Assembly (NCBI GenBank): GCA_032358255.1
Contig: JAULBX010026785.1
Coordinates: 1 to 43,767 of the forward strand
Direction of reading: 5' to 3'
DNA from: Heterotrichella gracilis
Lineage: Eukaryota; Sar; Xanthophyceae; Tribonematales; Xanthonemataceae
Length of the DNA: 43,767 bases
In this document: positions 1,391-26,483 of the stretch, in pieces
How positions within the stretch are numbered: position 1 is the first letter of the stretch
How the letters are laid out: each line of letters begins with the position of its first letter
Translations under genes and position numbers: made by a program
Notes under the pieces: model-generated
Databases searched by the model: none
Told to the model about the DNA's origin: nothing
What the model saw: the letters and a program-made list of their open reading frames with translations, nothing else

Positions 1391-4300
1391 TTACAAGCCT
1401 GCCTTGGCCTCCTCACTCGTGCGCTTCCCGCTGTTGCTGTTCCGCCTCAGCGAGCGGCTGGGCCCAAACGCCCAGTAGCCCTCGAAAATGGCCCCCGCCC
1501 GTTCCCAGCTGGGAACCTTGAGCAATTTCCTGGCGCCCCCCGGGGACCCCACCGGTCCCTGCTCCGCCCCGCTCCACCCCTCAAAGCTGGCGGAGCGCCT
1601 ATCCCCCTTGGGCAGGGGTGCGCGGGGTGAGGACCTGGTGGCGCATGGCACCGGCGCCGATGCGGGCGCCGAAGCGGGGGGGGCCTGCGCGCCGGGACCC
1701 ACCCGTAGGACCCCCATGAGCGCAGATGTGGCGGGGCTCATTTCCCCGCTGCTGCTGCTGGGGGCCTCGGGCACCCCGCCGGGGCCCAGGAGGCGGAAAG
1801 GGGGTTCCGCTGATGCGGTTGAATCGCCAACGGGGATGTCGGGTGCTGCCGTGGCTGAGGCTGGGGTTGGGGCGGTGGCGGTGGCGGCGGGGCGGGGGAG
1901 CACGCCTGGCACGTCAAATGTCGGGGGCTTGATGAACGGCGAGGCGCGTTTCACCCCTGGCGCCGCGCGGGCGGGCTGTGTGTGTAGCCTCGACGCGGGG
2001 TCCGCCTTTTCTGCCCCTGGGGGTGCGAATGGCGAGGCTTTCTTCCAGGGGACGGCAGTCACTTTGACCTCCGAGTGCTGCGCCATGCCGCGGGGGTCGC
2101 GCTCAGAGTACTGCCGCGCAAACGCGCACCGATCCGAGGAACCCGCGCTGCGCTCGGCACCCTCTGCGGCATCCACCGGGCATGTGCCCCCGGGTTGCGC
2201 TGGTTGCGCCTTGGCAGCTGTGCGCCCTCCCATCCCCAGGGGGCAGGTGGCGGCGCCCGGCTGGGGAGGAGGGGTGGTGCCTGGTTGGGCTGGCTCTGGG
2301 AATGAGTACTGCGTTTCCACCAGGTTGCCGTGGATGATGGCCAGGATGACCTGCGGGCGGGTTAAGGGTTTAGGGTTTTGTTTGAAGGGGCGGGGAGGGG
2401 GTGGGGGGCAGGTTACATGCACTGTGACAATGCAGCCAGACTAGCAGGGGGTGGGGCAGGTGCTGGCAAGAAATCGACTGAGACAAAATGAGACTGCAAT
2501 AGGACGAGCGTACCAGGCAGCGCCATTTGCCCCGCTACAGCAGGTGCCCTCCGCTCCTGGGACTCAATTCAATAGGGTTACCATTTAGGGTTTAGGGTTT
2601 CCCAGCGCAGCCCCAACCCGTCCAACCCCCCTTCCACCAGCACCTCCTTCAGCAGCTACCCCTGTTCAGGGTTCGATCAGGGTTTGTGGTTTTAAGTTTA
2701 GGGTTTCACAGCGCAGCCCTACCTCGTCCACCCCCCCTTCCACCACCACCTCCTCCACCAGCTACCCCTGTTCAAGGTTTCGATTCAGGGATTCAATTGC
2801 AGGGTTTAGATTCAGGATTTAAGGTTTCAGAGCGCAGCCCTACCTCATCCACCCCCCCTTCCACCAGCACCTCCTCCAGCACCTGCACCAGGATGCGCCA
2901 GTGGCCCCGATGCACCCCCTGCCGGGCGTTGAGGCGCGCGTGGATGACGTCCATGGAGGGACCCAAGTAGGCCTGGGGACCGTTGAAGGCAATGGCGATG
3001 AACTGGACCTGCGGGGGGTGGGTGGGTGGTTTTCAGGGTTTGGGGTTAGGGTTTTAGGGTTTTAGGGTTTTGGGTTTGAAGAACATGCGATGAACTGGAC
3101 CTGCGGGGGGATGGGTGGGTGGGTGGGTTTTTAGGGTTGTGATTTTATTTTTATACGTGAAGGTTTAGGTTTAGAGTTTAGGGTGCTGCTTGATGAGCGC
3201 CCTGGCAGCTATTGCCTGCAAGAGTGGCCCCAGCACCTCATGCAGAAGCAGTCATAGGGTCAACATGCCTTATGCAGGGTTGGGGTTTGGCTTTGGGGCT
3301 GAGGGTTTGGCGATAGGGTTTCGAATTTAGGGTTTTGCACCTGCTGCTTCATGAGCGCCCTGGCTGACATGGCCTGGAAGAATGGCCCCAGGACCTCATG
3401 CACCAGGATCCTGTCGTAAAAGTTGTCAACCAGTTTGCCCACCACAGCCAGGCCGCCCAGGCGCTCCAGCACGTCGTTGGGGCGGAGGGTGGCGCCAGGG
3501 GAGTTGTAGGGGGAGGAGGCGGGGGTGGAGGCAGGAGGGGGCGCCGACAGGGTGGGCACGCCCTGTGGTGGGGGGAGGAGAATGGTTGGTTTTGAATGCG
3601 AGTGTGTGGGGAAGGAGGGGGGATTTGTTGGCACCCCAAGGGGTACGAGGTAGCTGGCGCGAGAGTGACGAGCAGCACAAGGCCTTGCCCCTCGAAACCC
3701 TACCCTATACCCTTAACCAAGAGTGCACCACAAATCCCCACCACCTGCAGGCCTAGGCGCCTGTCCTGCACCTCCAACCACACACACACTGCCCCCACCC
3801 CCCCTCCCAACCCACACACCACACCCGTGTCATGCACCGCAAATCCTAAACCCTAACCGTAAACCCTAAACGCACCTCTGACATGCTGGGCATGGCTGGT
3901 ATCCTTCCCGACAGCCGCATGCGCTGCCTGTCGTGCACGGCAAACCCTAATCCCTAAACCCTCCCCATAAACCCTAAGCGCACCTCTGACATGCTGGGCA
4001 TGGCTGGCATCCTGCCCGACAGTCGCATGCGCTGCCTGTCATGCTCAGCCTCCATGTCAGGGGGGAGGTGGGCGGCGCGGCCAGGGGAGGAAAGGCTGGA
4101 CTTGTCAATAGTCTGCTGGGGGGGGGGAGGAGGTGGTTAAGCTTCACCACCTGGGTCTCAAAATTTGCAGGGGAGGGAAAGCTGCAAACAAAATCCAGCA
4201 GAAACACTCGCAAAAAAGGCAGAGACTCTCCTTTCCTGGCTGCAACTACCGTAACACTTCGTAAAGTGTGTTTCCAGGGTCCCATGACTGACCTGTGGTG

Positions 4301-7040
4301 CGCTCCTGGTGCGTGCCCGGTCCATGGATGCCCGCATGGACGCAGATGCAAATGGCTTGAGCGTCTCAATGATCTCCTTGGTGTGTGGGCGCTGCGTGGG
4401 GTCCTTGTCCAAACAGTCCCACAGCAGCTGCCGCACGCCCTGGGGGCACTCCTCGGGAACCCTACGCAAGGGTTTTGGCCAGGGGGGGGTCAGCAGTCAG
4501 CGCTTTGCCAGTGCAGGACATGTTGTAATGCAGCAGTTTGGGTGCGCTTGCATTGCGTTGGAAAAACCCTGCCACAGGAATTTCACCCCCTTGTGCGCAC
4601 CTCACGTCCCGGATGTTCCCCCTAACAAAACCCTAGGATTTTAACCCCTGTGTGCGCACCTGACGTCCCGTATGTTCCCCCTGCGCGGCACCCCCCCCGT
4701 GATGATCTCCCACAGAATGATGCCATACGCGTAGATGTCCACATTCTCGTCACACTTGTGGCTGTCAAACAGCTCTGGGGCCATGTAGGCAAAGGTGCCT
4801 TGCATGGCGCAGGTGACAAGGGTGGCGGTGGAGACCTGGGGCGAGGGGAGGTGGGGGGAGGAATCAGCGGGCCGGCAAAACCTGCCCACATGGCGGCCTG
4901 CAGAGTTGCTATCTTCCCCTCCATACATGCTCGATGGCTCAGAGTTTGCAGCCTTTGTTATCCACTTCCACACAGTACTGCTCAAGCCAATGCACTCATT
5001 GTCAGCTTTATCGCACATGGCGTTTCCACAAAGCTTTGTCCCCGTCCCCAAGTACAGGAAGTACCCCTGGCAGGCCCACATCCGCAACATTGGCGTTGAG
5101 GGAGCCTTTCATAAGGGCTTGGGGTTGGGGTTTGGGGTTTCCAGTAGGGTTTAGGGTTACGGGTTTCCCGCCACCCACCTTTGCCAGTCCCACGTCCGCT
5201 ATCTTTGCGTTGAGTGAGCCGGTGAGCAGTACGTTTGCGGTCTTCATGTCAAAGTGGATGATGTGCCTCGAGTGCAGGAAGTGCAGGCCCAGCGCGATGT
5301 CCATAGCCACACGCTTGCCCCTGCAATAAGGGAAACGGGTGTGTCTGGAGGGGAAACCCTTGTGTAGGGTTTACACGTGCAACCTGCAGAGCACGCTCCA
5401 ATGCCTGTAAGCTTTTGACAAAAGAGTGGCAGTGGGAACAGGTAGCAGCGCCCGGCACTCACTTGGTGGCCCAGCGCCCCTGCCCCGTCTCAATGGCGCT
5501 GCGCAGGTCCCCCCCTTTCATGAGCTCGGTGGCCAGGTAGGGCTGCCCCGCCTCGTTCAGCCCCACGCCCAAGAACTGCACGATGTAGGGGCTCTGCAGC
5601 GTGCGCAGCAGCGCAATCTCCCGGACAAACTCCTGCTGGGCCGCCTCCGAGGCCTTACCCTGGGCGGTCAATACTTTTATGGCCACGGGGATGACCCCGT
5701 TCAGCAGGCCGCGGTACACCTTGCCATACGCCCCCTCGCCAAGGAGTAGGTCCTCCCCCTCTGCGCTCTTTTGAATCGCCACCTGGTAACAACCATGGGC
5801 ATTTCAGTACACTTCCCTTGTTGGGGGATCTACTACAGCATTGCAGGTGTTGAAAGTCTAACGACCTTTAAGGGTTTAGGGAAAGAGAAGACTGGTGCAA
5901 ATTGACTGGCGTTGCCTCTCCTTGCCTGTCCTGGTCAAGAAATGCAAGGTCAGAGTACATGCATGCCCAGGGTGGGGCACAATGACCACCGGTGGCCCAC
6001 GCCATACATAGGGCACAATACCCATCTGCTGACTAGCTGAAACGTCTTATGCCTGGAAGCACAGGTTCTCCAGTCACCGCACAATTCCATAGGAAAAGAA
6101 CCGCGCCAATACACTGTGGCGTCAGCACCCCAGTGCCACTGACCAGTTTGAGGCATTGCATGCCAGTGCAATGCATCCTGTCGTAAGATGCGCACATCTT
6201 GGCCAAGCCCCCTCAAGACCCCACACCCACCAGCAACCCTGGCAGCCAAGATACCAGCCTGTGCGCACCATAGTATCCAGTGTGTTCCCTTACCTTTGTG
6301 GAATCCAGGATCCCCGACCCGCAGTCCCCGAGGCCCCGGGAGGCGATATCAATGGACTGCCTCAGCTGCCGCACCTCCTCCTGGTGTTTGAGGAGCGAGT
6401 GGCTGCCCTGGTGCAGCAGCTCGTCGCTGTCTTGGGACATGGTCACCACATAGCCATGCCTGCTCAGGCGCTCATCCTCCTCGGGAGCAGGGGAGTCAAC
6501 TTCCACCGCCCATGTGTTGCGCGCAACGACACCTGAGGTGGGAGTGAATGGAGTTGGTGACTTTGTGTTCCAGGAAGCATACCTGCCCCCACATGCCTGT
6601 GGAGGCAGAGTCGGCAAACGGGCAACACTTGATGTGGGCAGTCCTCATCGAGCCCTTCAAGCATGGTGTCACAGTGCAGGTTGCAATCTGATATTCAGCA
6701 GGCGGTGGTGGGCTGCCCCAGTCACGGCAGCACGCCTTGCTTTACCTTTGGCAACGGCTTTGGCTGGCGTTTTGCTCAAGTGCCTGACCAGGAACAGCAC
6801 CAGTGTGGCAGCAGCCAGGGTGGTGATGGCAACTGCCAGGAAGGAAAACGCTCCATGTAAGCCCCCAGTGACCTCTGCACTCACTGCTGACACTGAGCTC
6901 AAGCCAAACAGGGCCAGGAGGACGTGCGCTGGCTGTGCAGAGCACCAGTGGAGCGCTGATGTGGCTGAAAGGTACACATGGTGGGGACGCCTCCCTGAAG
7001 TGCTGGCATCAGACGGGCAACTCCTTGGACCGTGCTCCAT
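1391..7040 (-). CDS. membrane-anchored TKL protein kinase fused to a truncated hemoglobin domain (copy 1)
   Basis: Ten exons, joined in phase: 7040-6746, 6532-6294, 5782-5463, 5320-5179, 4835-4660, 4461-4293, 4115-3984, 3562-3341, 3008-2844, 2350-1391 (939 residues). Residues about 38-55 and 64-86 are hydrophobic and read as a signal/anchor and a membrane segment. The kinase domain (about 190-435) has a glycine loop GEGAYGKV (193-200), Lys214, catalytic HFDMKTAN (307-314), DVG (327-329) and an APE motif (351-353). It is a non-RD TKL kinase that keeps the catalytic Lys and both Asp residues. Residues about 520-635 are a complete group I truncated globin with Tyr540 (B10), Phe552/553 (CD region), Leu561 (E7), Gln565 (E11) and His588 (proximal F8). 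The tail is Ser/Pro-rich and basic, with a DRRSASFEGWS motif shared with copy 2. The start was chosen because an MEH...STSG N-terminus is shared with copy 2; the frame is open further upstream to 7469. Heme sensing that controls kinase activity is inferred. Confidence 0.88.
2602..2777 (-). repeat. two intronic copies of the exon 9 3' edge
   Basis: Segments 2602-2670 and 2706-2777 are imperfect direct copies of 2828-2890, the last bases of exon 9 (kinase-globin copy 1) with its donor. They lie in intron 9 and are separated by TTTAGGG-like sequence. Confidence 0.85.
3085..3250 (-). repeat. intronic copies of exon 9 5' edge and exon 8 3' edge
   Basis: In the single intron between exons 8 and 9, 3085-3121 repeats 2995-3030 (exon 9 acceptor and first codons). 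Segment 3185-3250 repeats 3341-3407 (end of exon 8). The intron therefore carries decayed copies of both of its borders. Confidence 0.85.
3870..3936 (-). repeat. intronic copy of exon 7 3' edge
   Basis: Near-identical direct copy of 3978-4042 (exon 7 end plus donor), lying about 100 bp further into the intron among CCCTAAA runs. Confidence 0.88.
4585..4623 (-). repeat. intronic copy of exon 5 3' edge
   Basis: Repeats 4649-4690, including the CACGTCCCG/ATGTTCCCCCT segment that encodes the end of the kinase subdomain exon and its donor. Confidence 0.8.
5065..5110 (-). repeat. intronic copy of exon 4 3' edge
   Basis: Minus-strand translation gives GSLNANVADVGLP, a copy of the exon 4 end (GSLNAKIADVGLAK), which includes the DVG metal-binding motif. 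It lies in the intron just after the true exon and is not needed for the reading frame. Confidence 0.85.
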
Positions 7041-9239
7041 GCTGTGGGAGACCCGTGTGTCCACGAAGAGCCTGTTTTGAGGCTGTCTTGTGCTGGTATT
7101 GGAGCTGAGTTTGGAGGTGGTGGTTGTTTGGCTGCTGGCGAGGTGTAGGATCCAGTGGTCGACCTTCTGCCAAAACGCTGGAGGCTGGCCAGCGTGGTTC
7201 AGGAGCGGTTTAACCTGCACCCACGAAGCCATGCGACCTGAGCAGTGCGTTTGCGTTGCACTTTGGACACCGTGCACTATTCTCCCATCGTGCACAACGT
7301 ACAGGCACACTCTCGAGGTGCACAGTAGGCAGATGCCGTCCAAGCATGCGCCGTGCAGGTCGATGCAACGCATAGGACAGTCACTCGCACTGCAACGAGT
7401 TACCATCAGCCAGGAGCAATACGTTGCAACAACCCACTTCACCCTACGCTGCCCGGTAACGTGCAGCATTTACCCATTTGCTGCATGCTGTACCAGAGGA
7501 TGGTGTCTCTAGCTTGGCGAATGAAGCTACAGAGGCTACGTCATGCAGCAGCGTCAGATCAAGTGGCCTAAACAGCCACCACGGCGCTGAATGCAGTTGG
7601 ACAGACGATACGCTACACTAGGATTGCCCGCCTCTAAACGCAAGCAGTGGATGGCGATGACGAGGGGGGGGTGTCTATTGCTTGCAAGTGCCGAATGGGT
7701 GCCCAGTTGGCCATGCTGCACTCGGCCAAGCGCACCTCGACCTCGGTGACACTGCGAAGCTGTAGAGGCAGCCATTGCAATACAGACCAGGCGAAATGTG
7801 CGTTGATGCCCGAAAGGCAGCGGTGAAACCTGTCGTTGAGCTGGAACCGAGCGGCAGACAGGCTGCAATATTGGTGCCAGATGCTGAAACGGACGCCTTT
7901 GTGAGGCAAGGTGATAGACAACAGCTTCAGGTCATAAGAAACGGTGGTCTATAGAAAACGGTACAATGTCTGCAGCTGGGCTTATGCGGCCAAAGGTGGT
8001 GTTGGCTGCTTTTGAGGTTGGAGTCGTCGCCTGCAAAATATCTCGTCGGTGTGGGGCTGTCCTACAAGTGGTGTGGGCCCCGCAAAGTGCATCCACCGGA
8101 TCTGATACACAATATGAGTCAGGGCGTGACGTGAGGCCGCACAGTCGTCACCGCCTGGCCTCGCGTCATGACGGTTCGACAGCGGCTGTACAGTTTTGCA
8201 GCAACCCTTTGCAAAGGGCCTTTGACTACATGGGCTAATTGAAATGGCCCACTTGCCTGGTGTTTCCCAGAGGGCCTCTTGGCATGCAAACAGTGTCACG
8301 CACCTGCTGCAGCGGCCAGGGATGGATGGGTTCTTGGGGTAAGTTTTTGAAGCCCTCATGCAAACCAACCTCTTAACACCCTTGAAGACTGGGACGTGGC
8401 TCACACTGCGAGGGCCATCCAGTGTGCGTTTGCAGGGGAACCTGCCAGGTTCCCCTGCAAAACCGGGTTTTGATAATGGTTATATACATAATCGTGGGCA
8501 AGAAGCTGGCCAAGCCAACCCATGACCAACCTTTGGTTGAAGCAACAAATAGAACCTGGTGGCATGCTTGGCAATGCAAATGCAATCACCAACATGGTGC
8601 ATGATGCGTGTACAGTGCGGGCAGTGCACATTGGCTTTTATGTAAAGCACCAGGTGCCAAAGGAAACCATAGCTCGCTCCGAAATGAAAGCAGGGCTGAA
8701 GACCAGTGCATACATACATTAATAAGTGTCCTGTGCGCCTACATTTATTGGTGGGAAGCTAACTAGGCTGTTATTGAAGCTTGGCCTGAAAGCCAGCAAC
8801 TCTGAATGAAACCACAGCAGCGATGGCTGACCACAGTAGCCAGAAATAATAGAAGTGAAAATGGTGCCCTGACTAAGGACAGCCAGTATATCGCTATGAA
8901 TAACCGGTTGCGTATGATTCACCGCTGTGGGCGCTGGAAAACCCCTTGCACTGCCACTACAACTCTCCCTAGTTGCTCCTAGCAGTATTTATGTGTCTCC
9001 TTCATAGAGGCTGAGCACAGCCCCAATCCTGAAGCATAATTAATGATATTCTGCAGCAAGACATGACCCCCTGGAAGACCAACGGATACTGTCCTGCCCG
9101 ACACTTGCAGCACTGGCGGCAACAAGTTTATGGCATGGAAAATATCAAAACCACTCCATTATTGCCTTTTGTTGTATCCTACTGGTTCTCACACTGACAA
9201 ATACTCCGAATGCAGGGTTACCCTGCTAAATAAATAACC
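7041..9239. other. intergenic region between the two kinase-globin genes
   Basis: About 2.2 kb between the proposed start of copy 1 and the stop of copy 2. I see no convincing exon. ORFs here lack the G/C third-position bias of the neighbouring genes. The region must hold the copy 1 promoter and the copy 2 3' UTR. It also carries a short perfect hairpin at 8429-8461. Confidence 0.5.
8429..8461. repeat. 15-bp-arm perfect hairpin
   Basis: Arms TTTGCAGGGGAACCT (8429-8443) and AGGTTCCCCTGCAAA (8447-8461) are exact reverse complements separated by three bases. It lies downstream of the kinase-globin copy 2 stop; role unknown. Confidence 0.8.
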
Positions 9240-12200
9240 CTACTGAGGGCTCTCGCATTGCCCCGGGCTGGACGCTCCACTGGCGCGCTCCGGCCGATCG
9301 CTGCCGCTCCCCTCCCCCACCCTCCGAACACGCAGGTCCACCGAAACCCGCCTGCCAGTGGGGCGCCGCCGGTCCACCGACGTGCGCCGGCCAGTGGGCT
9401 TGCGCACCTTTGCAGGGGCCGCCGCCACGTTGCTCCACCCCTCAAAGCTGGCGGAGCGCCGATCCTGGGATCCCCGGCGCTCCGCCGCCGCCGCTGGCGT
9501 GGTGGTGGCGCGGGTGACGGTGGGGCGGGCTTCGGCGCGCTCCACCGCCCCGGGGGTCATCCAAAACGGCGCGCTGAACACGCCTGGGGGCCCCGCTTCC
9601 AGCCTCGGGAGCTGCCCCTCGCCGGCCCCATCCTCCGCATCCGAGAGAGTGGGAGTGGTGGTGCCGGTGGCTGGGCTCCTGCAGTCGATCGGGTTCCCGC
9701 CAAGGGGGATGCGCGCAAAGGGGGTGTCCCCGCCGGAGGAGGCGGGGGTGAGGCTGGGAGAGCTGCGCCCAGATGGTGGCGGCCGGGGCGGGATTGACCC
9801 CGATGTGAATGTGGATGCGAACACCGGCGCCCCGGGGGCCGCCGCCGCCTGCACCTTGGCAAACGGCGAGGGGCCCCGGGGAGCAACACCGGGAGGCGCT
9901 GCGCCGGCGCCGCCTGCATGTTGCACTTTGCTGCCTGGCGGCGGCGCTCGTGGCGTGGTTGTCGCGGCGAACGGCGAGGCGCGCTTCTGCGGCGCTGCGG
10001 TGACGGTCACCCCAGGGTGTTGGCGCGATGCCGGGTCCCGGTCCGAGTACAGGCGCTGCATCAGGGCCGATGGGCTTTGAGGGCCTGTACCATCTGCGGG
10101 AGCCTGGGTGTGGTCCCCGGGTTTTGGTGAGTCCCAGCGCCTGAGGGCTGCTGCTGCGGAGGCTGCGTCGGGGAGTGCGTGGGGGGGGTATGGGGTGGTG
10201 GCGCTATTGGTGGGTGGCAGGGGGTGCGGGTGGCTATCTTCCACCTCTGGGAATGCATACTGCGTGTCCATGATGTTGCCGATGATGATGGCGATGGACA
10301 CCTACAAGGGGGGGAGGGGCAGGGTAAGCGCTGCCTACTAAGAGGTGGTGATGCGTTGGTTTCAGAGCATGATGGGTGTCCATCAAGTTGTCGATGATGA
10401 TGCCCGATGGACGCCTGCAAGGGGGGTAGATAAGGGATGAGCCCCGGATCCAGGGATAAGCACTGGGAATGCGTTGGTTTGAGAGCATCTTGCGGATGAT
10501 GATGGCGATGGACACCTGTAGGGGGGGAGGAGCAGGGTAAGCGGTGGTGGTGCATTGGTTTCAGAGCGTGATGGGTGCAACCCATGGTGGATGAGGGAGG
10601 TGCTGTGAACCCTACACCACGACATCGCAGCCCCAGCCGGTGCAACAGCATCCAGCAGTGCATGCACTGCATGCAAGCTGGACTCCCGTCCCCAACCATT
10701 GAAGCCTAAACACATCAGGCCTACACCAGTGAGTCAGCAGTCAGGTCCAGCACGACCCCAACCCAAACCCATATTCCAAAACCCTACCTGCTCCACCTTT
10801 GCCTGCACCAGCGTGTCTGCAAACAGGTCCACCATGACGCGCCAGTGCCCCCGCGTGGCCCCCTGGTCGCGGGCTAGCTGCGCGTGCATCTCCTCGAGGG
10901 ACTGCCCCCCACCCTGGGTGGTGTGCGTGCCGTTGAAGGCAGTGGCCATGAACTGGATCTGCGGGTGGGTGGGAGGGGGGTTAAGTGGGCTGGGAGGAGG
11001 GTGGGAGGGGCACATGTGGTGTTTGTGTGGGTGAAGGGTGTTGAGCAACGGTGGTGGGGAGGGGGCTGGTATGCAAGGCGGGCGTGTTGGTGTGGGTGGT
11101 GGGGTGGTGGGTGCGGTTGAAAGGCGGTTAAGTATGAACTGGGCCTGAGGGTGCGTGGTGTACCCAAGGTGCACACATTGCGGCGTTGCCCTCTCGCATA
11201 TACTGCACGCCATTCAAACTAGTGGAGTACTCGACTGCCAGCGCCGGTGCATGCGGCACCTCCCAGTACCCTTGATAGGGCAATGTGGGCTGGGTTGTGG
11301 TGGACACGCGTCTAGCAGGCCCAAGCGTGCACTTGGTATATTTCAGGCGTGCTTATGAGCGCGCATACACTCAGGACGCCATAGATGGCAGTCTGTGCCA
11401 TATTTAGATGACAGAACAATGTATTTATGCTCCATGGCAGGTATATATCCGCCAATCACGGTCTTACCTGCTGCTTCATGAGGGAGCGCGCACTGAGCCG
11501 CCCAAAGATTGGCCCCAGCAGTTCATGCGACAGCAGGCGGTCGTAAAAGTGATCCGTGATTTGGCCAATGACCGCCAACCCCCCCAGGCGCTCCATGACG
11601 TCGTTTGAGCGGAGGGGGGAGGGGGGGGGGGAGGGGGGGCGCCTCCTCCTGCCCCGGGGGCTGTCCAGGGGGGAGGTGGTGGTAGAGCCCCAAGGGGAGG
11701 GGAGGGGGGGGGTGGCTTCAGGGGAGGGCAGCTCGGAGGGGTAGGGGGAGGCGAGGGGGGAGGGGAAGGGCGAGAGGGATGCCAGGGAGGAGCCGTGGGG
11801 GGAAGGGGAGTGATGGTGGTGGTGGAGAGGGGGGCGGCCCTGGCGGGGAGAGGGGAGGAGAGGGGGGGTGAGTGGTGGTGGTGCGGGTGGGTGGGTGAAT
11901 GTCCATCATGTCTATCTTTGCATGCAGGCGCGCATGCTAGTGTGACGCCTCTCCTGCGGGAATGCCCCTCCTGTACTTGAACACAGATTTCTAATTTGTG
12001 CCCCAGCGATTGACAGGAAACAGAAGCTGGTAAAACCAAAGGGAGAGTTGTACCCATATCCACAGCCCACAGGCCAAAGAGTACCCTCAAAACACGGTAC
12101 CCAGCCGCCCCACATCTGTCCCCAACACTACTCCCAGTGGACTCACCTCTGGCCACCAACATCCACCCACAACAACTGTTAAGGGCTGACAAGTGACCTA

Positions 12201-15200
12201 AACCCTAAAACCCTGCACAAGGCGCTCACCTCAGGCAGGTGGAGTGGCGCCGCCCTCCCCTGCGTGGGGCTCCTCCCCCCCACCCCCACCTCCTGCTCAG
12301 CAGCCGCCAGCCCCTGCATGAGTGCAGCCAAGCGCGCCATGTGCGCCTGGTTGGGGTTGGCCGCTGCCGACAGATCCTTGGAACGACCCGCGGGCAGGCT
12401 TTTGGAGCGGATCCTGGAATTGGCGATCAAGGTTTGGGGATTGGGGGTTGGGGTTTAAGGAGGCCCTTGGAGCGGGGAGCGGGGGGTTGGGGAGGTGTGG
12501 GGTGGAGCGTGGGGGATGCACAGTGATGCTGTTGTAGGTTAAATAGTTCCACATCTATCAAACATTACATTTGCAACAACCCCACAAAAGAACCAGGGCA
12601 GGCGCATGGGGCAGCAGGTGAGCTGGTGAAGGGGGACCAAAATCGGAAGAGCCTGCTGCATGTAACCCACCCACTTGGCCTCGGTTGCCAACGTCGCTGC
12701 CTTTACCCTAAACCCTAAACACTGAACCAATAAACCCTACAGCTCACCCACCTGGCCTCGGTTGCCAGCTTTGCCGCTGCCAGCGAGTGCGGCTTGAGGC
12801 ACTGGATGATATGGCGCGTGGAGGGGCGCTGCGCAGGGTCCTTCTGCAGGCAGTCGAGTAGCAGCTGCTTGATGTCGGAGGTGCACTCCTCGGGCACGCT
12901 GGGGGGAGGGGAGAGCAGAGTGTTGGAGTAGGGTTTTAAGGTGTAGGGATGTAGGGTTTGATGTAAGGCGGACAACCTCTGGTCGGTGATGTCCTGGACT
13001 CAAAGCCTATATTGGGATTTCGTGCGAGGATGTGCTGCGCTGTGGTGTGCAGGTGGTCAGCCTCCAAAGAGCGGCACAGCTCGCTTGCTGGACAACAGGG
13101 AGATTGCTGGACACAGGGAGAGAATATTGGGAGATGGGCTGAAGTACCCAGGGTTGAAGGTTTATCTTTCCAGGGTTTTGCACCGCACCTCACGTCCCGT
13201 ATGTTCCCCCTGCGCGGCACGCACCCTGTAATGACCTCCCACAGGATGACCCCAAAGCTGTAGATGTCCACCTTTTCATCGCACTTGTGGCTGTCAAATA
13301 GCTCCGGGGCCATGTAGGCAAAAGTGCCTTGCATGGCGCAGGTGACAAGGGTGGCATTGGAGACCTGGGGGAGGGGTGGAAGGGCAGTGGGTGCGGCATC
13401 AGCAAATCTCAAACTTTCCAAACGTCCTCAATTGCCTTTTTTCCTTCAAAAAGAGCGCATATTGTGTGTGAGGTGCGTTCCCAGCTATTCAGAGTGTGCA
13501 CCCCCAGTTGTGCATCTGGTTTCTGGGTACACCCCGTGTGCACACCTGCAACCGTTCAGGGTTTAGGGTTTAGGGTTCAGGGTTTAGGGTTTAGGGTTTA
13601 GGGTTTAGGGTTTAGGGTACACCCCGTGTGCACACCTGCAACCGTTTAGGGTTTAGGGTTTAGGGTTTAGGGTACACCCCGTGTGCACACCTGCAACCGT
13701 CGCACCCAGCAAGCCACAGAGCAGGGCCAGGGAAGGGCAGGGTTTTCCAGTAGGGTTTTAATAGGCCCCTGGCCTCACCTTTGCCAGGCCCACGTCCGCA
13801 ATCTTGGCATTGAGTGAGCTGGTGAGCAGCACATTTGCGCTCTTCATGTCAAAGTGGATGATGTGCCTCGAATGCAGAAAGTGCAGGCCCAGGGCTATGT
13901 CAATGGCGATGCGCTTGCCCCTGCGATAAGGGAAACGGGTGTGTCGGAAGGGGAAAACCCTTGTGTAGGGTTTGTATCAATGGCGATGCGCTTGCCCCTG
14001 CGATAAGGGATATGAGTGTGTCGGAAGAAAAACCCTTGTGTAGGGTTTATGTCAGTGGCGATGCGCTTGCCCCTGCGGCCGAGAAAGCGGGGCGTCGGGG
14101 GTAGGAATCATTGCATGTCGTGTGTTGCGCTGCCCACGTGGGGTGGCTGCGGGAGGGGAATGTGCAGCCAGGAAACCCTTGCACAGGGTTTGAGCCAGGG
14201 CGCCGCCGATGGTGATGCCCTAGCACCCTCCAATGGGCAACAAGCCCATGCATGCCCACGCCAGCCCAGCCTCACACAAAACCCTCGACAAAACCCTCCC
14301 CGACTTGGTGCCCCGGCACCCCTGGCCAATTCCTGTTTGTACTGTTCAGAACCCATGCGTGGGCTGGCAGTGGGCCCGCGTGTGTCACATGCCAAGCCCG
14401 CCAAAAGCCAGCCACCCATCTACATGCAACCCTACACCCTAAAGTAAGAGTATTCAACAGCACAGCCGCCAGCAGCACACCCGGCACTCACTTGTTGGCC
14501 CAGCGGCCCTGCCCAGAGTCGATGGCGCTTCGCAGGTTACCCCCCTTCATCAGCTCGGTGGCCAGGTAGGGCTGCCCCGCCTCGTTCAGACCCACGCCCA
14601 AGAACTGCACGATGTAGGGGCTCTGCAGCGTGCGCAGCAGCGCAATCTCCCGCACAAACTCCTGCTGCGCCGCCTCCGAGGCCTGCCCCTGTTGGGTCAA
14701 TATTTTTATGGCCACGGGGATGACGCCGTTCAGCAGGCCACGATACACCTGGGGGGGTGGGGGGGGTGGAGGGAGGTGATGGTGGGGATGGGGGGTTGAG
14801 GACAAAGAGGGTGCAAGCAGGTGTGCCCGAGGGGGGTGCACCTAGCAGCAGGTTTGGGGGACATTGTGTGTGGCCAAGGTTGCACTCATATTTGATAGTT
14901 GCACAGACTGGAGTGCCGTCACAGCTGAAGCGTGCGAGTGACTGGTTCAGGGCCTTATGATGTGGTATTACCCTTGCTCAGGGTCTATCAGTGGGCCAAT
15001 CCCCTGATTTAGGTTTTGTAGTGGACCCATTTACACTAATATTGGTAGAGTGTAAATGGGTCCACTCCATAAGACCCATTGCCCCTCATCAATGGGGCAA
15101 CGTGTGTGCTACTACTCTGGCGCAGGGGCGTGAGGGTGCGCATAACCCTGTCCAAGGGTGTTGGTGGCTGTGTGCTGTGCTGGTGGTTATACAACAACAG

Positions 15201-16389
15201 CTTGATGATGTAAAGCTTTCATTACCACGAGAGCAATAAAAACCTGACGGTGATTTTTTATCGTAAGAGTGCAGGAGCCTCCCACCTTGCCATAGGCGCC
15301 CTCCCCCAGCAAAATATCTTGCGGGTCCTCCCCCTCTGTCTGCTCAATCTCCACATTGGCCGGGTCCAGAATCCCAGAGTGGTAGTCCCCCAGGCCCTGG
15401 GATGCCACGTCGATGGAGCGGCGCAAATTCCGCATGTGCTCCTGGGTGGTGGTGGATCCCCGGCTGATCAGCTCGTCGCTGTTGAGGGATTTGAGGTCGT
15501 CCCGGGGGTTGAAGCTGTGGGCGGGCGTCAAGGATTTGTCGCTGGCATCGCCCCAGGAGTTTCGGCGCACCTCGGTGGGAGTGATAGCTGCAAAACGGGT
15601 GGGTTGGATGGGTATTGGATGTGGGTGGCAGATATGGGGGGTGGAGAAGGGGCTTGGGGACTTGGAGTACCCAGCGTTAAGAGGTGGGAGATGGGTGAAT
15701 CAGGTGTAATTGAGAGGGGTGGCGGAGACTATTCCCGCAGGGGGCCAGTCAGTGCACAGGGGTTGTTGTTGCCAGGGTTCCCAGGCCCCAAGACTGCACC
15801 CTGCCTGCAGTAGGGTTCCACCTAGCGGGCATGGCAGTTGATCAGTGAGCTGTGACGCAGCAAGTGGCCCACCTTTAACGTACCAGGAGTGCAACCAATG
15901 CACAAGGACAGCTGCGGCAATAAGCCATGGAAAACAACCAGGGCTGGTCATGCACTTGCGGGCTGTGCTTTCAAGCACACGGGCAGCTTTGGCACAGGCT
16001 GTGACTCAGTGCCACGGCACAACAGCCAAGGCTGACGCCACCCCACCCCTGCACCAAGGTGTAGCCCTCTCACCTGGTCCCCTGTGTCGGTACTCGCTCC
16101 GCATCAGGAGCAGGCCCAGCGCGATGATGAGCAAGGAGCCAAACACACCTGCCAAAGTGGAGGGGGAACTCACGTCCAGGCCAGCAATTATAAGCTCTGC
16201 GTTGGCAGTTGCACAGAGGCACATCCCCAGGAGGGTCTGGAGCTGCATGGCTGATAAGCTGAGGAGCTTGGCGGGTGGGAGGCGGTGGTGGGAGGTGGTG
16301 GTGGTGGTGGGAGGTCGTGGTGGTGGTGGTGGGTGGTGGGTGCCAGAGGTGCTGGCTGTGGGTGGGTCCCACTGGTGGCTGTGCTCCAT
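9240..16389 (-). CDS. membrane-anchored TKL protein kinase fused to a truncated hemoglobin domain (copy 2)
   Basis: Tandem paralogue of the gene at 1391-7040. Ten exons, all in phase: 16389-16074, 15587-15286, 14748-14492, 13920-13779, 13364-13189, 12898-12752, 12413-12230, 11839-11468, 10958-10788, 10301-9240 (1042 residues). Residues about 48-64 are a hydrophobic signal-like stretch and about 80-96 a membrane segment followed by Arg-rich sequence. The kinase has GEGAYGKV split by an intron at GK|V, Lys221, HFDMKSAN (314-321), DVG (334-336) and YMAPE. A Ser/Pro/His-rich linker leads into the globin with Tyr607 (B10), Leu628 (E7), Gln632 (E11) and His657 (F8). The tail carries DRRSASFEGWS and two GRRxSVD motifs, plausible basophilic phosphosites. 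An alternative in-frame Met lies at 16452. The acceptor of exon 8 sits in a C-rich tract and is the least certain junction, although the frame stays open through it. Confidence 0.87.
10365..10535 (-). repeat. two intronic copies of exon 10 5' edge
   Basis: Segments 10365-10422 and 10480-10535 repeat 10242-10312, the acceptor and first codons of the last exon (GATGATGATGGCGATGGACACCT-like). Both keep an acceptor-like end on the minus strand. Confidence 0.85.
12657..12712 (-). repeat. intronic copy of exon 6 3' edge
   Basis: Repeats 12738-12785. The minus-strand translation ATLATEAKWVG mirrors the true exon end (AKLATEARWVS across the donor). Confidence 0.82.
13528..13700. repeat. compound telomere-like array
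   Basis: Three copies of a 29-30 bp unit beginning GTACACCCCGTGTGCACACC (13528-13557, 13618-13647, 13672-13700) are separated by uninterrupted TTTAGGG runs. The array sits inside an intron of kinase-globin copy 2. TTTAGGG is the Arabidopsis-type telomere unit, used by several green algae. Confidence 0.92.
13902..14080 (-). repeat. about 75-bp tandem repeat of exon 4 5' edge
   Basis: The true exon 4 border (GCGATGCGCTTGCCCCTGCG with its acceptor) and its intron flank recur at 13977-14048 and, partly, 14049-14080. The corresponding intron of the paralogue (5321-5380) has a single copy, so the expansion followed the gene duplication. Confidence 0.9.
15021..15065. repeat. 17-bp-arm hairpin in intron
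   Basis: GTGGACCCATTTACACT (15021-15037) and AGTGTAAATGGGTCCAC (15049-15065) are perfect reverse complements with an 11-base loop. They lie in intron 2 of kinase-globin copy 2, the intron that copy 1 lacks at this position. Confidence 0.9.
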
Positions 16390-17763: not shown

Positions 17764-20700
17764 CTACCCCGTCTTGCGCTTCTTGAACCTCTCCAGCGCC
17801 CCCATGGCCTCTGGCCCGGTGCCAATTGACCCAAACACACCCTCGGGCACAGCAGCCTGTTCAAGCTCCATGTCCTCCCCTGCGCCTTCCTCCCCTTCCT
17901 CCCCTGCCTCCTCGTCATCATCATCCTCCCCTAGGGCAATCTCCTCGGGGTTGGATGCTGCTGGGGGCCCGCCTGAGAGGGAGCACAAGGCACAGGTTAA
18001 AATCTCAAGATACTGGTCTAGTTTACCCTGCTAGGGTTTCTTTCCGGTTCGTAGGGTTCCCCAGGGCAATCTCCTCGGGGTTGGATGGTGGTGGTGGACC
18101 GCGTGGGCGGGAGTGACAGGGGTCCAAGCGCAATGTGCATGCAGGTCTTGTTGGCAGCACTATAGTAGCAACTGATGTTGCAGGCCACGGCAGGGCACTG
18201 CAGTGGCCTGTCACATGAAGCCATCCCAACAACCCGCGACCTACCCACCCACCCACCCACCCCACCCATGTGCGCCACCGCCCACACCGCCCTCTGTCAG
18301 CGGGTCAGGGTATGTTGTCCCAGCACTACAAACCCCAGCAAAGCAAACAGCCACCCCACAACCCGCCACCCATACCCTGCTCCTCTACACCCCCCATCCC
18401 CCCCACCCACGCAACCATGCTTCCACCCCCCACCCATCCCCACATCCACCTGCACCCCCACCCACACCACCCCCTGTCACATCCAGCTCCCACCCCTCCC
18501 CACACCCACCTGCACCACCGCCCACGCCGCCCTCTGTCGGCGGCTCTGGGTTGATGGTGCCCGCACTCACAAACCCTGCCAGCTTGGTGCCAGCCGTCAG
18601 CCCGCCAGTGGCCGCAGCCTCAAGGGCAGCCATGTCATCCTCGGGATCACGCGGCCGCTTGCCGAAATCCCGGGCGCCAGCCTCCACGGTCCCTGGGAAG
18701 GAAAAGGAATGTAAGCAAGTGGCCATCAATGTTACACCCATCGCCGAATAATCAGCCCGTCCTGTGCCCTGGTCTTTCCTAAAGATGTAAAATGGACACG
18801 AGCTTTTGCAACAAATGTCCATGCCAGCACACCCATCCCCCCTCCACCGCCACCACCGCCCACCTGTGGCCGGCCCCGCGCCCCCCTCCACCACCGCGGT
18901 GTTGTAGTGCTGCTGCGAGAATGCAGCCGCCACCGACCGCTTGATGCGCAGCATCTCCCTGAAGGTCTCCTCGTTGCCATGTGCCACCTCAAACTCGTTC
19001 CAGTCCTGCCAGAAGGCGCGGTCGGCGCGGGGGTCGGACAGGCTGCGGGGCAAAGGGTTTTGTTAGGGTCTGTGGTAGGGTTTGGGATAGGGTTTTGGGT
19101 GCCACTGCCAGATGTGGTTGTACTGCTGCGCACGGTTTGCTGCATATTCAGGTTTGAGACCTGGCAATTACCCTAGAACGGGCATAGCTACACCGCCCCT
19201 GGGCAATCCCACGCTAGGGTTCACCAAGTCAGGGTCCAGAGTAGGGTCCAGGCTGGGTCCAGGTTAGGGTTTCACGCTAGGGATCAGGCCCTGCTGCCAG
19301 CAAGCATGCACATAGGTTGTCCTTAGGGTTTAGGGTTTTAGAGGCCAAGCCCGTACCTTGATGCGTGCACGTAGATCGCCCTTGCCCTGTCTATTTCGCC
19401 CAGCCTGCGCTCCAGCTGTGCGTACCGCAGGCACAGCGTGCGGCAGTCGGCATCCGCCAGGTTGTGTGGGGGGGTTGCCTCGATGGCGCTCTCATAGATC
19501 TCGCGCACCTGGTACAAGGGGGTTTTGGGTTTAGGGTTTAGAAATAGGGTTTGATTAGGCACAGCGTGCGGCAGTCGGCATCCGCCAGGTTGTGTGGGGG
19601 TGTTGCCTAGATGGCGCACTCCTAGATCTTGCGCACCTGGTTGAAAAGGGGGTACTGGGTTGCGGGTTGGAGTGTAGAGTGTGGGCCCCTTGATGGCGCA
19701 CTCGTAGATCTTGCGCTCTTAGTAAGGGGGAGGGAGTCTGAATCCTAATACCGATGACATTACAAGGATATATTAAATATTACAACATTTATTGACCGTC
19801 ACATTCAGGAAGCCAACCCGGGCTAACAGATATACAACACTAATAAGAATATTAATAGTTACAATAATCACACAATACGCGATTGCCACCACCAACACCA
19901 CTACCAACATCACCACCCACCTTGCCGACCCCAAAAAACTCGGAAGCGCGTGAGATGTAGAGCTCGTACACCCCCAGCCGCTCCCCCTCAGGCACCTTCT
20001 GCACCGCCTCCTCATACACAGCCATGGCGCTGCGGGACAGGCCGTGCGCCTCCTCAAAGGCTGCGTACTGCAGGAACAGAGGCTTGCACTCCGCGGGGGG
20101 CGCCTGCGGGGAATAATCAAATTCAAATTTTGAATAAAAGTGTACCAATCTTTTGCAACAAGCATTCAGCTATACAAGCGTGTTTTTTGCCTACTTCATT
20201 TCAGACTTTGGAGAGTTTAGGAACTGGGGTGCCGTGCGCCTTCTCACACTCTGCGGGGGATATTCAAATTACATGGCTAGATATTTGCGTTACCACAATT
20301 TCACGGCACGGATTTAACTCACCACTGTGGCAACTACAGACACTGAAGGGTCAAAGGTGTAGGGTGTCTTGGCCATGATGTGACATTGTTGGTACTGCTC
20401 CAAGAACAGCCCAAGTACGTCTCAGTACGGCCCTCAAAAACACCCTACCCAACAGTCACTGTGCCAACCAACCCCACCCTACCCAGAAAAACCCTCGCAA
20501 AAACCCTCCTCGCCTCGTCAATCGCCTGCCTGAACAGGTCCAGCGCCCGCCCCAGCTTCCCCTCCCCCACCTCACCCAGGGCGCATGTTCAAGTGCAAAA
20601 CTGGCGCCAACAACATATAAAGAAAGCCCTCCGCGCAGCCCTCAACGCCCACCACCCCACCAGTCCCCCATCCCAACCAACCACCACCCTGCTCCGCCCA

Positions 20701-23700
20701 AAACCCCGCCTCACCTCGTCGATCGCCTGCCTGAACAGGTCCCGAGCCCGCTCCAGCTTCTTGCCCCCGTACCGCTCCACAAAGAGCTTGAGGTAGGCCG
20801 ACCAGATGTCGCGCACGTGCGGGTACTTGAACGCAGCCACGCCCCGCTCGTACGCCTTGAAGCTCTCCTCGAAAAAGTGGTGCTCCTGGGGAAACAAAGG
20901 ACTCAATTATTTTTTCTGGCGGCAGATTTGATATCAATATAGGTATGGGTGTTGCTACTCCTAACTACAGTAAAAAAAAAACTGGGAACTTCCTTATATA
21001 CAACCCTATTGGAAACCCTACTGCATGCCCCACCTGTAGGAAGCTCGCAAAGTTGAGGATGATCTGCGGCGTGGCTATCTTGAGGTCCAGCATCTTCTCG
21101 TACACCGCCTTGGTGCTCTCCAGTGTGCCCAGGGACTCCTCCAGGTCGCAGTAGAAGGTCCACAGGCGCTGCGAGCGGTACAGCTTCAGCTGCACGGGAA
21201 GGTCCTGGCGCTCCTGCGGGCAAGGGGTTGGGTAGATTTTAGGGTTGTAGTAAGGGTTTAAGGGAGGTTTAGGGTTCAGCTTCACAGGCACTGTGAGTGG
21301 TACAGCTTCATCTGCACAGGCACCTAGCGCTCCCGCAGGCAAATGGGTTTAGGGTTTAGGGTTGAACTTCACAGCAGCCCTGGGATTAACACGCACCAAC
21401 TGCACAGCAGGTCCCGGCGCCTGTATCGCGGCATGACAACCGGTGCAACGATGGCCTTGCGCAGCGATGTTCCAGGGCCCGCTTCAAGATATTGCGGCAC
21501 AGCTCCATTTCTGCCCAAACCCTACCAAACCTTACCTTCAACCCTACCAAAACCCTAAGAAACTTCCGAAAATAAACGCACCTCGTATCGCGGCATGACA
21601 TCCGGTGCCGCGGTAGCCCGCCGCATGAGCTCCAGCGCCCGCTTGAAGTTCTTGTGGCGCAGCTCCATTTCAGCCCACTCACACCACACAGTGGCGAGGT
21701 CATCCACGTACTTGAAGGTGGCAGCGGTGGCTTTTTCAAAGATGACGCGCGCGTTGGGCAGGTCCCCGTGGCGCTCGTACAGCTTGGCGAACGCGATCCA
21801 GAGGGTGTTGGGCTTGCCCAGGGCCTGCAGGGGTGAGAAAAGGGAGGGTGAGGGTAGGGTTGGGGTGACGGTGTGTGCGGGAGGTGGATTATTAAAGAAC
21901 CAAATGAGATGAGGCATGAAACCACATACATGAAGCACGAAACCACATACATAAATTGTAAATGTTTTTTGCAAAGAACACCATCTCCCCCAAAAACATT
22001 AACCTTTCAATTAGTACATAATGTATTCTCCTCTATTCCTTTTCAGTATTATTATTTTTCGCGCCCCACCTTCTCCACGTCCACCGTCATGACCGCCTCT
22101 GTGTACGTAAGGTGGCGCACGCATGGCAATACAATTCTTTTTCAAATCAAATCTTGCTCTTCTTTTCCCAAGATTGTCTATGCACATTTTCCACGCCGAA
22201 GTTACTTTCACCCTTTATATGTTGACCCCATTCCCTCACATGTTTTGCCCCGCTCCCCACCTTTTCCACGTCCACCGTCTTGACCGCCTCTGTGTATGTG
22301 AGGATGGCGCGCGTGGGGTCATCAGCAAACAGCCTTGCCCGCTTGTGCCACTCGTGCACATTGTGCGGGTTCTGGCGCAGCTTGACAGAGGACAGCAGCT
22401 CGGGGCGCCGGGCCATGAGGTTCTCAAGCCGCGCCAGCCTGGAAGGGGGTTGAGGTTTGGGGTTTGGTGGGGTTCAAAGGGGTTGGGTTTACTAGGGGTC
22501 GTCAGGAGTCGTCGTTAGGTGCGTATGCTTGCTCTGCACATGTGCATGCTCTGGCGCAGCTTGACAAGCAAAAACAGATTGGGGGGCCGGGCCATGAGCT
22601 GCCGCTGGCTGGCCAACCTGCGAGTATGTAGGCTTTACAGTGTTGAGGGTTCCCTAAGGTTCACAAAGGTATGCAGGGTTTGCAACAGGGGGATTCAATG
22701 GAGTTTGATAGGGTTCAACGCTATACGCGTGACCAGCAGCGGGAGCACTCGGGTCAGTTGGGTGCACAAAGAATGTAGGGTTCCGTGTGCAGGATTTACG
22801 GGTGAGGCCTAACCAAGGCTTTTGAGCCTGGGGTGTTACGTTTAGAACCTAGGGATAAGGTTTAGGATACCTGAGGTCCACGTCGTTCCCGTCGTCTTTG
22901 AGCAGAAAGTCCTCCCCGTCGCTCTCCTCCCCTTCCCCCCCCTCCTCCTCATCATCCCCCAGCTGCTCCATCTTGGCAGCCAGCAGCGACTCCTCAAACG
23001 CGGTCAGCGCGTCGAAAATGAGGCTGAAATCGCGCACAGTGATGACGCTGGTAAGGCCCTCCTCGTATACATCGCGCGCGGACTCGAAGAGGCCCCTGCG
23101 GATGTAGTAGTCTGCCAGGGAGGTCCACAGGCGACCCACCTGCAGGGGGGGGAATCGGAGGAGGGTTTAGGGTTCAGGGGGTGGAATCGGAGGAAGGATT
23201 AGGGTTCAGGGGGGGGAATCGGAGGGGGATTAGGGTTCAGGGGGTGTGCAACGGGCCGGTAGGGTTGTGTGATATACTTGTGGGTATATGCCACACTCCC
23301 CACACACACACCATACCCACCACACACACCACATCCATCCGCCACACACCACACACCACCACATCATCCGTGTAGTGCCTGATACCTGCACTCAAGATCG
23401 CATCCGTCGCCACCCCCCCAACCTCCAACGGGTACCGGTATCGACTCTAATTGAAGGTTTGCCACCGAACCCCACACAGCGCCACACCGATTTCCCCCCA
23501 CACCCACCAACCTTACCCACCCCAACACCCACCCCACCCACCTCATCCGTGTAGCGCCTGATCCCCGCCCTCAGAATCGCATCCACCGCCACCCCCTCCA
23601 CCTCCAACGGGTGCTTGGTCACCATCTCACACAGCTCAAGCCACAGCGCGTGCTTGGATTTGCCCTCCAGGGATCGGAAGGTGTCATCGTCGAGCACGAG

Positions 23701-25586: not shown

Positions 25587-26483
25587 TGTGACCAGCGTGT
25601 GTGAGGTGGTAGGGAGCAGGCCCGGTTTGATCCTCCTCAGGGTTCAAAGCTGGCCATTGGGGTGGGAGGCTGGGTGAGGGTGGCAAGGTGGGCTTCCCTC
25701 CCCAGGCGGGTTTTCAAGTTGTAGTTTTTTGTATCGAAGGCTGTACTTCCTTACGGCTGCGTATACGTACGTGGCTGGCTGGCAACTTGAAGGCAAGGGA
25801 GAGGTGGGTTTCACTCGAGTCCACGGCTCCTACATGCAGAGCTGGACTGGTCGAGCCTGGTGCACACCAGAGAGTACTGCCTGACTCAGCTGAAGATAAG
25901 CAGGGAGCTGCTTGTCAGGGTACCAGCACCGTTGGCGTGTTAGTACTGTAGCCAGCCCAAAAAGATTTTGGCAATTGCTGGATGTTGCCAACAGCTGCGG
26001 GGAGGTACAACATTATTTTTTCCGTCTCCCCTTGCGCCGCTCAGACTTCCGCCGGCCGGGCGCGCAAGCGATCGCCCGATCGAATGTCGTCATGCCCGCC
26101 CGCGGCGCGCAGACGGACCCCTCGCACAGATACGCCTTTCAAGGCGCACGATGAGCCGGCTGGTGAACAGCTGACCATGCATCGAGGACAACGCGCACTT
26201 TTGGAAAAAGTACAGGTACCTTTTCGTCGCTTTTTGAACCTGTGGCCCAGCGAAGACGACCACGACAGCAAGAACTGCAGCAATCCTTTTGGGACAAAGC
26301 CTTCTAGAAGGATACGCGAGCGTCAAACGACACCAACCCGAGCCAAACCTTCGCCTGCTTATCTGCAACGCTGAACCTAGAACAGTGGCACAACTTACAG
26401 ACAGTCCTGTGTTGTGGCCGAGCGACCTTCGTAGGCGAGGTCCCTGTTGCATTGGGCTTTTGTTCAGACAACACAACCCCACC
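25587..26483. other. intergenic upstream of SYF1
   Basis: Upstream region of the SYF1 gene. I see no convincing exon or motif. The short frames here lack the third-position bias of the flanking genes. Confidence 0.4.

Follow-up and report, generated by a model that had tools for sequence, protein, structure and literature searches.

Fusions of truncated hemoglobins (trHbs, or 2/2 hemoglobins, 2/2Hbs) to protein kinases are known by mention, since according to the introduction of PMC7082302 genome data have revealed fusions of 2/2Hb domains with 'protein kinase or nitrate reductase' as well as multi-2/2Hb proteins. No fuller account of 2/2Hb-protein kinase fusions was found in the literature searched, and passages of PMC4439042, PMC3820574, PMC3287990, PMC5745447, PMC4101818 and PMC4620153 do not mention a trHb-kinase fusion in algae. 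Here we describe two neighbouring genes in a stretch of 43,767 nucleotides of Heterotrichella gracilis DNA (the window), each of which encodes a predicted membrane anchor, a TKL-type kinase and a group I trHb. This is the same domain pair as in the published fusions, for which the comparison is with that one-sentence mention. The initial annotation of the window had presented the architecture as one not known to be described, and in view of PMC7082302 this was too strong. What looks new is that the fusion occurs in a membrane-anchored TKL form, that it has expanded to about 11 genes, and that some of these carry globins in runs.

The group I trHbs Chlamydomonas THB1 (4xdi), cyanoglobin and M. 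tuberculosis HbN (1idr) resemble the window globins in the profile match, the N-terminal GG, Tyr B10, Gln E11 and His F8, and Leu E7 of the window globins is as in the HbN row of the alignment. Unlike these proteins, the window globins sit C-terminal to a kinase with a predicted membrane anchor; they also read HW where the THB1, HbN and cyanoglobin rows read HF, and their EF pair is NG. Two bacterial CheA proteins, P0123 with two inserted trHb domains and P0124 with one, likewise hold a trHb within a signalling kinase, but this is a chemotaxis histidine kinase, and the trHb is inserted inside CheA. In globin-coupled sensors the globin is found at the N terminus. These sensors would work in a similar way, with a heme globin controlling a signalling output, but they are described in a passage of PMC7082302 as 3/3 globins, whereas the window genes combine a C-terminal 2/2 trHb with a eukaryotic Ser/Thr-type kinase. 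The 3/3 S-family globin by which that class is defined thus appears to be missing from the predicted window proteins. The raphidophyte nitrate reductase-trHb is another algal trHb carried on a larger enzyme, although its partner, in the passage of PMC4620153 that deals with it, is a reductase and not a kinase.

Plant and algal TKL/RLK kinases (CTR1 and the kinases of Parachlorella, Apatococcus and Coccomyxa) have a similar kinase domain, with up to 44-45% identity to the nearest, but in the window proteins no large ectodomain is predicted. The protein-database searches depended on shared five-residue words and on protein length. With residues 185-625 of gene 1, 271 proteins were found at E<=1e-10 among 8000 candidates scored; in the best 120 of these 271 kinase relatives no globin was detected, either with PF01152 or with our own globin hidden Markov model (HMM; best E 0.73). 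The globin segment of gene 2, queried within the full-length protein, gave nothing at E<=1e-3 among 67 candidates. The globins of a related locus, C150 (see below), had four matches among 5226 candidates, namely a five-globin protein of Astrephomene, a multi-globin eukaryotic transcript and the two bacterial CheA proteins, and for none of these four is a Ser/Thr-type kinase domain listed. These searches thus gave no other Ser/Thr kinase-trHb protein.

Splice models of both genes were built from genomic DNA, with sites picked by eye and with our own spliced aligner (Table 1). All 18 introns, nine in each gene, are GT-AG, there are no stops inside the frames, and both frames run from the kinase through the linker into the globin uninterrupted. 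A tandem pair with a continuous, phase-consistent frame, as claimed in the initial annotation, was therefore found at the expected place, with ten exons per gene on the minus strand. The models differ in a single place: gene 2, like four of its relatives, has an intron within the glycine-loop exon, and gene 1 has none. The two C-terminal tails have the stretch DRRSASFEGWS in common. On this evidence the fused kinase-globin architecture of both genes is well supported, and kinase and globin would be encoded by a single fused mRNA.

Both kinase domains match PF07714, and the closest plant structure found in the Protein Data Bank (PDB) is CTR1 (3ppz), in keeping with the earlier assignment to the TKL kinases. 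Among the best 60 of 329 PDB kinase matches CTR1, IRAK4, MLK4 and BRI1 predominate, but an EGFR chain (two copies) ranks first, with some Tyr kinases further down. The nearest named kinases come from Parachlorella, Apatococcus, Elliptochloris and Coccomyxa. One species from each of the first three genera was checked, and all three are members of Trebouxiophyceae; judged by its kinases, the host would be a green alga of this class or related to it. The motifs GEGAYG, VAIK, HFDMKxxN and DVG are present, and according to the kinase profile and these motifs the catalytic set (Gly loop, Lys, catalytic Asp and metal-binding Asp) is kept. DVG was found in all nine outside relatives checked and HFD in three of the nine, so these odd motifs are a trait of a wider group of kinases and not a sign of decay.

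The globin segments were assigned to group I trHb with the Pfam profile and by comparison with known structures, and both agree with the initial annotation. As excised domains the globins of gene 1 and gene 2 score 36.3 and 24.8 bits against PF01152 (cut-off 21). With the whole proteins the scores are 32.0 and 19.6 bits, so that in the profile check proposed in the initial annotation both excised domains and the whole protein of gene 1 lie above the cut-off, and the whole protein of gene 2 lies just below it. The best PDB matches are THB1 (E 9.5e-15 for gene 1 and 4.4e-10 for gene 2), HbN (E 7.5e-11 and 1.6e-6) and cyanoglobin, besides chains labelled as group 1. Matches to the group II proteins, namely HbO and trHbs of Geobacillus/Bacillus, are far weaker. 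When six globins were run against NCBIfam, a prokaryote library, no trHb match was obtained for any of them, the two window globins included, and Protoglobin (PF11563) remained below its cut-off. The AB and EF glycine motifs are defining for group I trHbs; the AB pair GG is invariant here, and at the EF position the two window genes read NG and several relatives EG. With the helix labels B10, E7, E11 and F8 for the aligned pocket positions, the pocket consists of Tyr 539, Leu 560, Gln 564 and His 587 in gene 1 and of Tyr 607, Leu 628, Gln 632 and His 657 in gene 2. These four residues had already been read from the sequence, with exact numbers for gene 2 and with numbers for gene 1 that are each one higher than in the present model. 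All four coincide in the alignment of gene 1 with HbN, and the gene 2 row agrees with that of gene 1 at each of these columns. Both domains would be expected to bind heme.

Hydropathy predicts one transmembrane helix in exon 1 of each gene (best 19-residue Kyte-Doolittle mean of the N-terminal part 2.56 in gene 1 and 2.39 in gene 2). It is preceded by a weaker hydrophobic, signal-like stretch at about residues 40-58 of gene 1 and 53-71 of gene 2, and because the two stretches lie so close together, there is no room for an ectodomain between them. Basic residues come after the stronger stretch at each N terminus. From hydropathy and the positive-inside rule, both proteins are predicted to insert into the membrane with kinase and globin on the cytosolic side.

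The pair belongs to a larger family. The genome (68.5 Mb in 903 contigs) was searched with a query made of the kinase tail and the globin of gene 2, with tblastn and our own spliced aligner, and with separate kinase and globin searches; since these searches score the best candidates only, genome-wide totals of loci are lower bounds. A kinase followed by a globin on the same strand was found in at least 11 genes on nine contigs, the two window genes and nine more, and at least 11 of the 15 globin loci found have a kinase of the same clan just 5' on the same strand. The nine further genes show that the order of kinase and globin in the window is not due to chance. A rough estimate, which assumes 150 kinase genes at random places, puts at 0.3% the probability that such a kinase lies up to 2.5 kb 5' of a random globin locus and on its strand. 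The tandem pair of the initial annotation is thus real, but too narrow a description: it forms part of a family of about 11 genes with one to about six globin units per gene, some of them with about five or six globins in tandem. There are two globins each in C150 and C749 and one each in C272 and C413; further kinase-linked loci are C106, C270, C277 and C376, the last with two genes. C277 has five globin second halves in the stretch examined, in a run at L041 234-6676 downstream of one kinase, and gene b of C376 has five, with a sixth from a search match, in a run at L040 4148-9896, also with one kinase. For C277 the kinase, and for gene a of C376 both kinase and globin, are known from exon-level matches alone. 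A first search of the genome with PF01152 did not match the window genes, whereas their spliced domains do match, probably because single exons are too short and too divergent for a match.

The C150 member, assembled without its last exon, comprises 1005 residues with two N-terminal hydrophobic stretches, GT-AG introns, a kinase of 182.7 bits (E 1.2e-53) and two PF01152 stretches with 91 bits together; the last exon of its first globin continues straight into the second globin with no intron. The six loci that were read closely share two intron positions within the globin, both of phase 0; the first follows Gln E11 and the second precedes the last helix. Globins without such a kinase were found at C141, C556, C161 and C306. 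The C161 globin (L025 3738-6841) falls into the same clade and has open frames upstream that match neither Pfam nor a kinase; the locus is perhaps another trHb fusion. Armadillo-like repeats, at one time assumed upstream of this globin, were withdrawn, as there is no such Pfam match.

The origin of the family was approached with two trees. In the kinase tree (27 rows: nine globin-linked kinases, those of C277 and C376 gene a being left out, nine of the 120 listed outside relatives and nine globin-less loci of this genome), the globin-linked kinases lie in one clade with support 96/98, together with five globin-less kinases, and the four other globin-less kinases of the genome lie outside it. 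In the globin tree (27 rows with nine kinase-linked units, those of L039, L040 and L041 being left out) the kinase-linked units form a group that also includes the C161 globin; sister to this group is the free-standing C556 globin, and genes 1 and 2 are sisters with 100/100 support. Each tree needs two changes of label, against a mean of 7.8 after shuffling, and none of 500 shuffles was as low in either. Two changes in each tree fit one ancestral fusion, and one gain of the globin followed by one loss would be the simplest reading, albeit not a proven one. Probably a single event linked a C556-like globin to a kinase of this clan, after which the fused gene multiplied.

Between genes 1 and 2 the kinases are 85% identical, with a nonsynonymous divergence (dN) of 0.10, a synonymous divergence (dS) of 0.49 and a dN/dS of 0.21 by the NG86 method. 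The globins are 54% identical (dN 0.38, dS 0.56), with second codon positions least changed, and the N terminus, linker and tail show 30-33% identity. These values indicate that constraint on the globin is weaker than on the kinase, but visible.

Taken together, the observations are best accounted for by a lineage-expanded family of membrane-tethered heme-globin kinases which would convert gas or redox state at the heme into phosphorylation, a reading to which we give a probability of roughly 0.55. Each member would be a single-pass membrane protein in which a TKL Ser/Thr-type kinase is followed, on the cytosolic side, by a flexible linker and a heme-binding group I trHb. A small ligand, most likely NO and/or O2, would bind or react at the heme and alter the globin, and the altered globin would change kinase activity or dimerisation through proximity and not through a rigid joint, so that gas or redox state at the membrane is converted to phosphorylation. 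Of the candidate ligands NO is favoured, since passages of PMC4620153 place the single-domain trHbs of algae in NO metabolism; O2, CO or redox state may be alternatives behind it. Linkers between kinase and globin vary from about 20 to about 265 residues over the loci, and for this reason proximity, cis-inhibition or dimerisation is favoured over a rigid lever. Sensing, the identity of the ligand and the coupling to the kinase are what we infer from this arrangement. The window pair would be a tandem duplicate within the larger family, which probably grew from one kinase-trHb fusion and some members of which carry additional globins. In a bolder form, which we regard as tentative and somewhat short of an even chance, the kinase clan would use one to about six trHbs as direct cytosolic gas sensors, a eukaryotic counterpart of the globin-coupled sensors with an independent 2/2 origin, in which the number of globins tunes sensitivity or cooperativity.

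Several observations weigh against the proposed sensor kinase. All gene models derive from DNA sequence alone. The gene 2 globin is divergent, just below the Pfam cut-off in the whole protein, and has a two-residue insertion ahead of the F helix. In other members the pocket is altered: the C413 globin has Leu at B10 and Phe at E7 and lacks Gln at E11, the C106 globin (L029 4902-5072) has Tyr at F8, the C270 globin has His at B10, two pieces of C376 have Phe at B10 or Val at F8, and the E7 and E11 letters vary along the globin runs of C277 and C376. It follows from these damaged pockets and changed E7/E11 residues that the usual heme binding need not hold for every unit. The C106 kinase belongs to those most closely related to the window kinases. 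Profile scores are weak for the first half of the C270 globin (12.4 bits) and for six first halves of C277 (10-18 bits). The globin dN/dS is about 0.68 (NG86), compared with 0.21 for the kinase. For the five kinases nested in the globin-linked clade no globin was detected in the stretches examined, and in none (0%) of 200 bootstrap trees does a single branch separate all globin-linked kinases from the others, as one change alone would require. Finally, the long and variable linkers disfavour rigid allosteric coupling.

The fusion could also be real without the globin being a direct switch of the kinase; the globin would then be a tethered NO dioxygenase or nitrite reductase that alters NO near the membrane. 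According to passages of PMC4620153, the single-domain THB1 of algae is active as an NO dioxygenase and acts together with nitrate reductase, and the raphidophyte trHb-nitrate reductase fusion described there points in the same direction, as does the coincidence of the gene 1 pocket with that of HbN; an enzyme would account for the globin runs of C277 and C376 no less well than a sensor. Taking into account that Pfam finds no reductase domain in the window proteins and that the joint retention of kinase and globin in about 11 genes points to a functional link, we consider a tethered enzyme unlikely, though worth serious attention.

Less probable still is that the globin serves as an oligomerisation or docking module with heme dispensable in many members, while the kinase answers another signal. 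This would agree with the loss of Tyr B10 or His F8 in some units, with the faster evolution of globins than of kinases, and with the observation, given in a passage of PMC7082302, that Chlamydomonas THB11 is brought to oligomerise in vitro by its terminal extensions. However, of the 20 second-half pieces in kinase-linked loci that were read as sequence, 18 retain His F8, and of the 20 first-half pieces 17 retain Tyr B10; both window genes keep the full pocket set. These counts leave out four partial pieces (L023 at 6879; L041 at 634, 730 and 829) and a second first-half copy, L041 at 2655, which has Asp at B10 and with which the Tyr B10 count becomes 17 of 21. The two sets of 20 halves do not come from exactly the same units, because L040 has one unpaired half of each kind.

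That kinase and globin are separate adjacent genes, and their fusion an artefact of the gene models, is very unlikely. The way in which the models were made leaves room for such an error, and at three of nine loci one or two Met codons occur in the open frame before the globin. However, at the other six, both window genes among them, there is no Met in the open frame leading into the globin; order and strand are identical in 11 genes, frames and intron phases agree, and in the C272 model only about 20 residues and one intron separate the end of the kinase from the globin. Decay of the window genes, to which the fast change of globin and tails and the tandem repeats and exon-edge copies in the introns could be ascribed, can practically be dismissed in view of frames open over 938 and 1042 codons, GT-AG introns throughout and strong constraint on the kinase.

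Table 1. Positions in the window of the two kinase-globin genes and their parts
Feature	Position	Strand	Remarks
Gene 1	1391..7040	minus	938 aa, 10 exons; anchor, TKL-type kinase, trHb, low-complexity tail
Gene 1, exons 1-5	7040-6746, 6532-6294, 5782-5463, 5320-5179, 4835-4660	minus	
Gene 1, exons 6-10	4461-4293, 4112-3984, 3562-3341, 3008-2844, 2350-1391	minus	
Gene 1, predicted transmembrane helix	6786..6842	minus	about aa 67-85, exon 1; hydropathy only
Gene 1, kinase domain	4338..5761	minus	aa 186-432, exons 3-6; PF07714 E 5.8e-47
Gene 1, exon 7, kinase-globin linker	3984..4112	minus	splice model
Gene 1, group I trHb domain	2288..3469	minus	about aa 522-640, exons 8-10; PF01152
Gene 1, C-terminal low-complexity tail	1391..2287	minus	33% identity to gene 2 tail
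Gene 2	9240..16389	minus	1042 aa, 10 exons; architecture of gene 1
Gene 2, exons 1-5	16389-16074, 15587-15286, 14748-14492, 13920-13779, 13364-13189	minus	
Gene 2, exons 6-10	12898-12752, 12413-12230, 11839-11468, 10958-10788, 10301-9240	minus	
Gene 2, predicted transmembrane helix	16102..16158	minus	about aa 78-96, exon 1; hydropathy only
Gene 2, kinase domain	12775..15327	minus	aa 193-439, exons 2-6; PF07714 E 3.1e-48
Gene 2, exon 7, kinase-globin linker	12230..12413	minus	splice model
Gene 2, group I trHb domain	10239..11596	minus	about aa 590-710, exons 8-10; PF01152
Gene 2, C-terminal low-complexity tail	9240..10238	minus	tail compared with that of gene 1

The window (1-43767) contains 46 telomere-type words (CCCTAAA/TTTAGGG), compared with 4.8 expected. 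Of these, 28 lie inside genes 1 and 2 and are all intronic in the models (e.g. 13554-13700 and 2369-3332). The introns also carry tandem copies of adjoining exon edges, often next to CCCTAAA words, in units of 108 bp and 77 bp (3845-4044 and 13896-14077); further copies were seen by eye at 2652-2843 and 10302-10527. Intron growth or repair may have left these copies as scars, and they could provide alternative splice sites. Elsewhere in the window there is a gene for a SYF1-type HAT-repeat splicing factor on the minus strand at 18388-25643 (Pfam PF23231, PF23220 and PF23233) and a leucine carboxyl methyltransferase-like gene on the plus strand at 32741-33870 (PF04072).

Direct sensing of NO and O2 in algae and plants is a largely open question. 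According to passages of PMC4620153, canonical soluble guanylate cyclase is lacking in higher plants and present in Chlorophyta; heme-globin kinases would therefore add a route in which a single protein leads from gas to phosphorylation. The family includes natural members with one, two and about five globins, and some of them have broken pockets, so that it lends itself readily to comparison. If the proposed reading is true, the family would represent an independent origin of globin-based signalling, from 2/2 globins.

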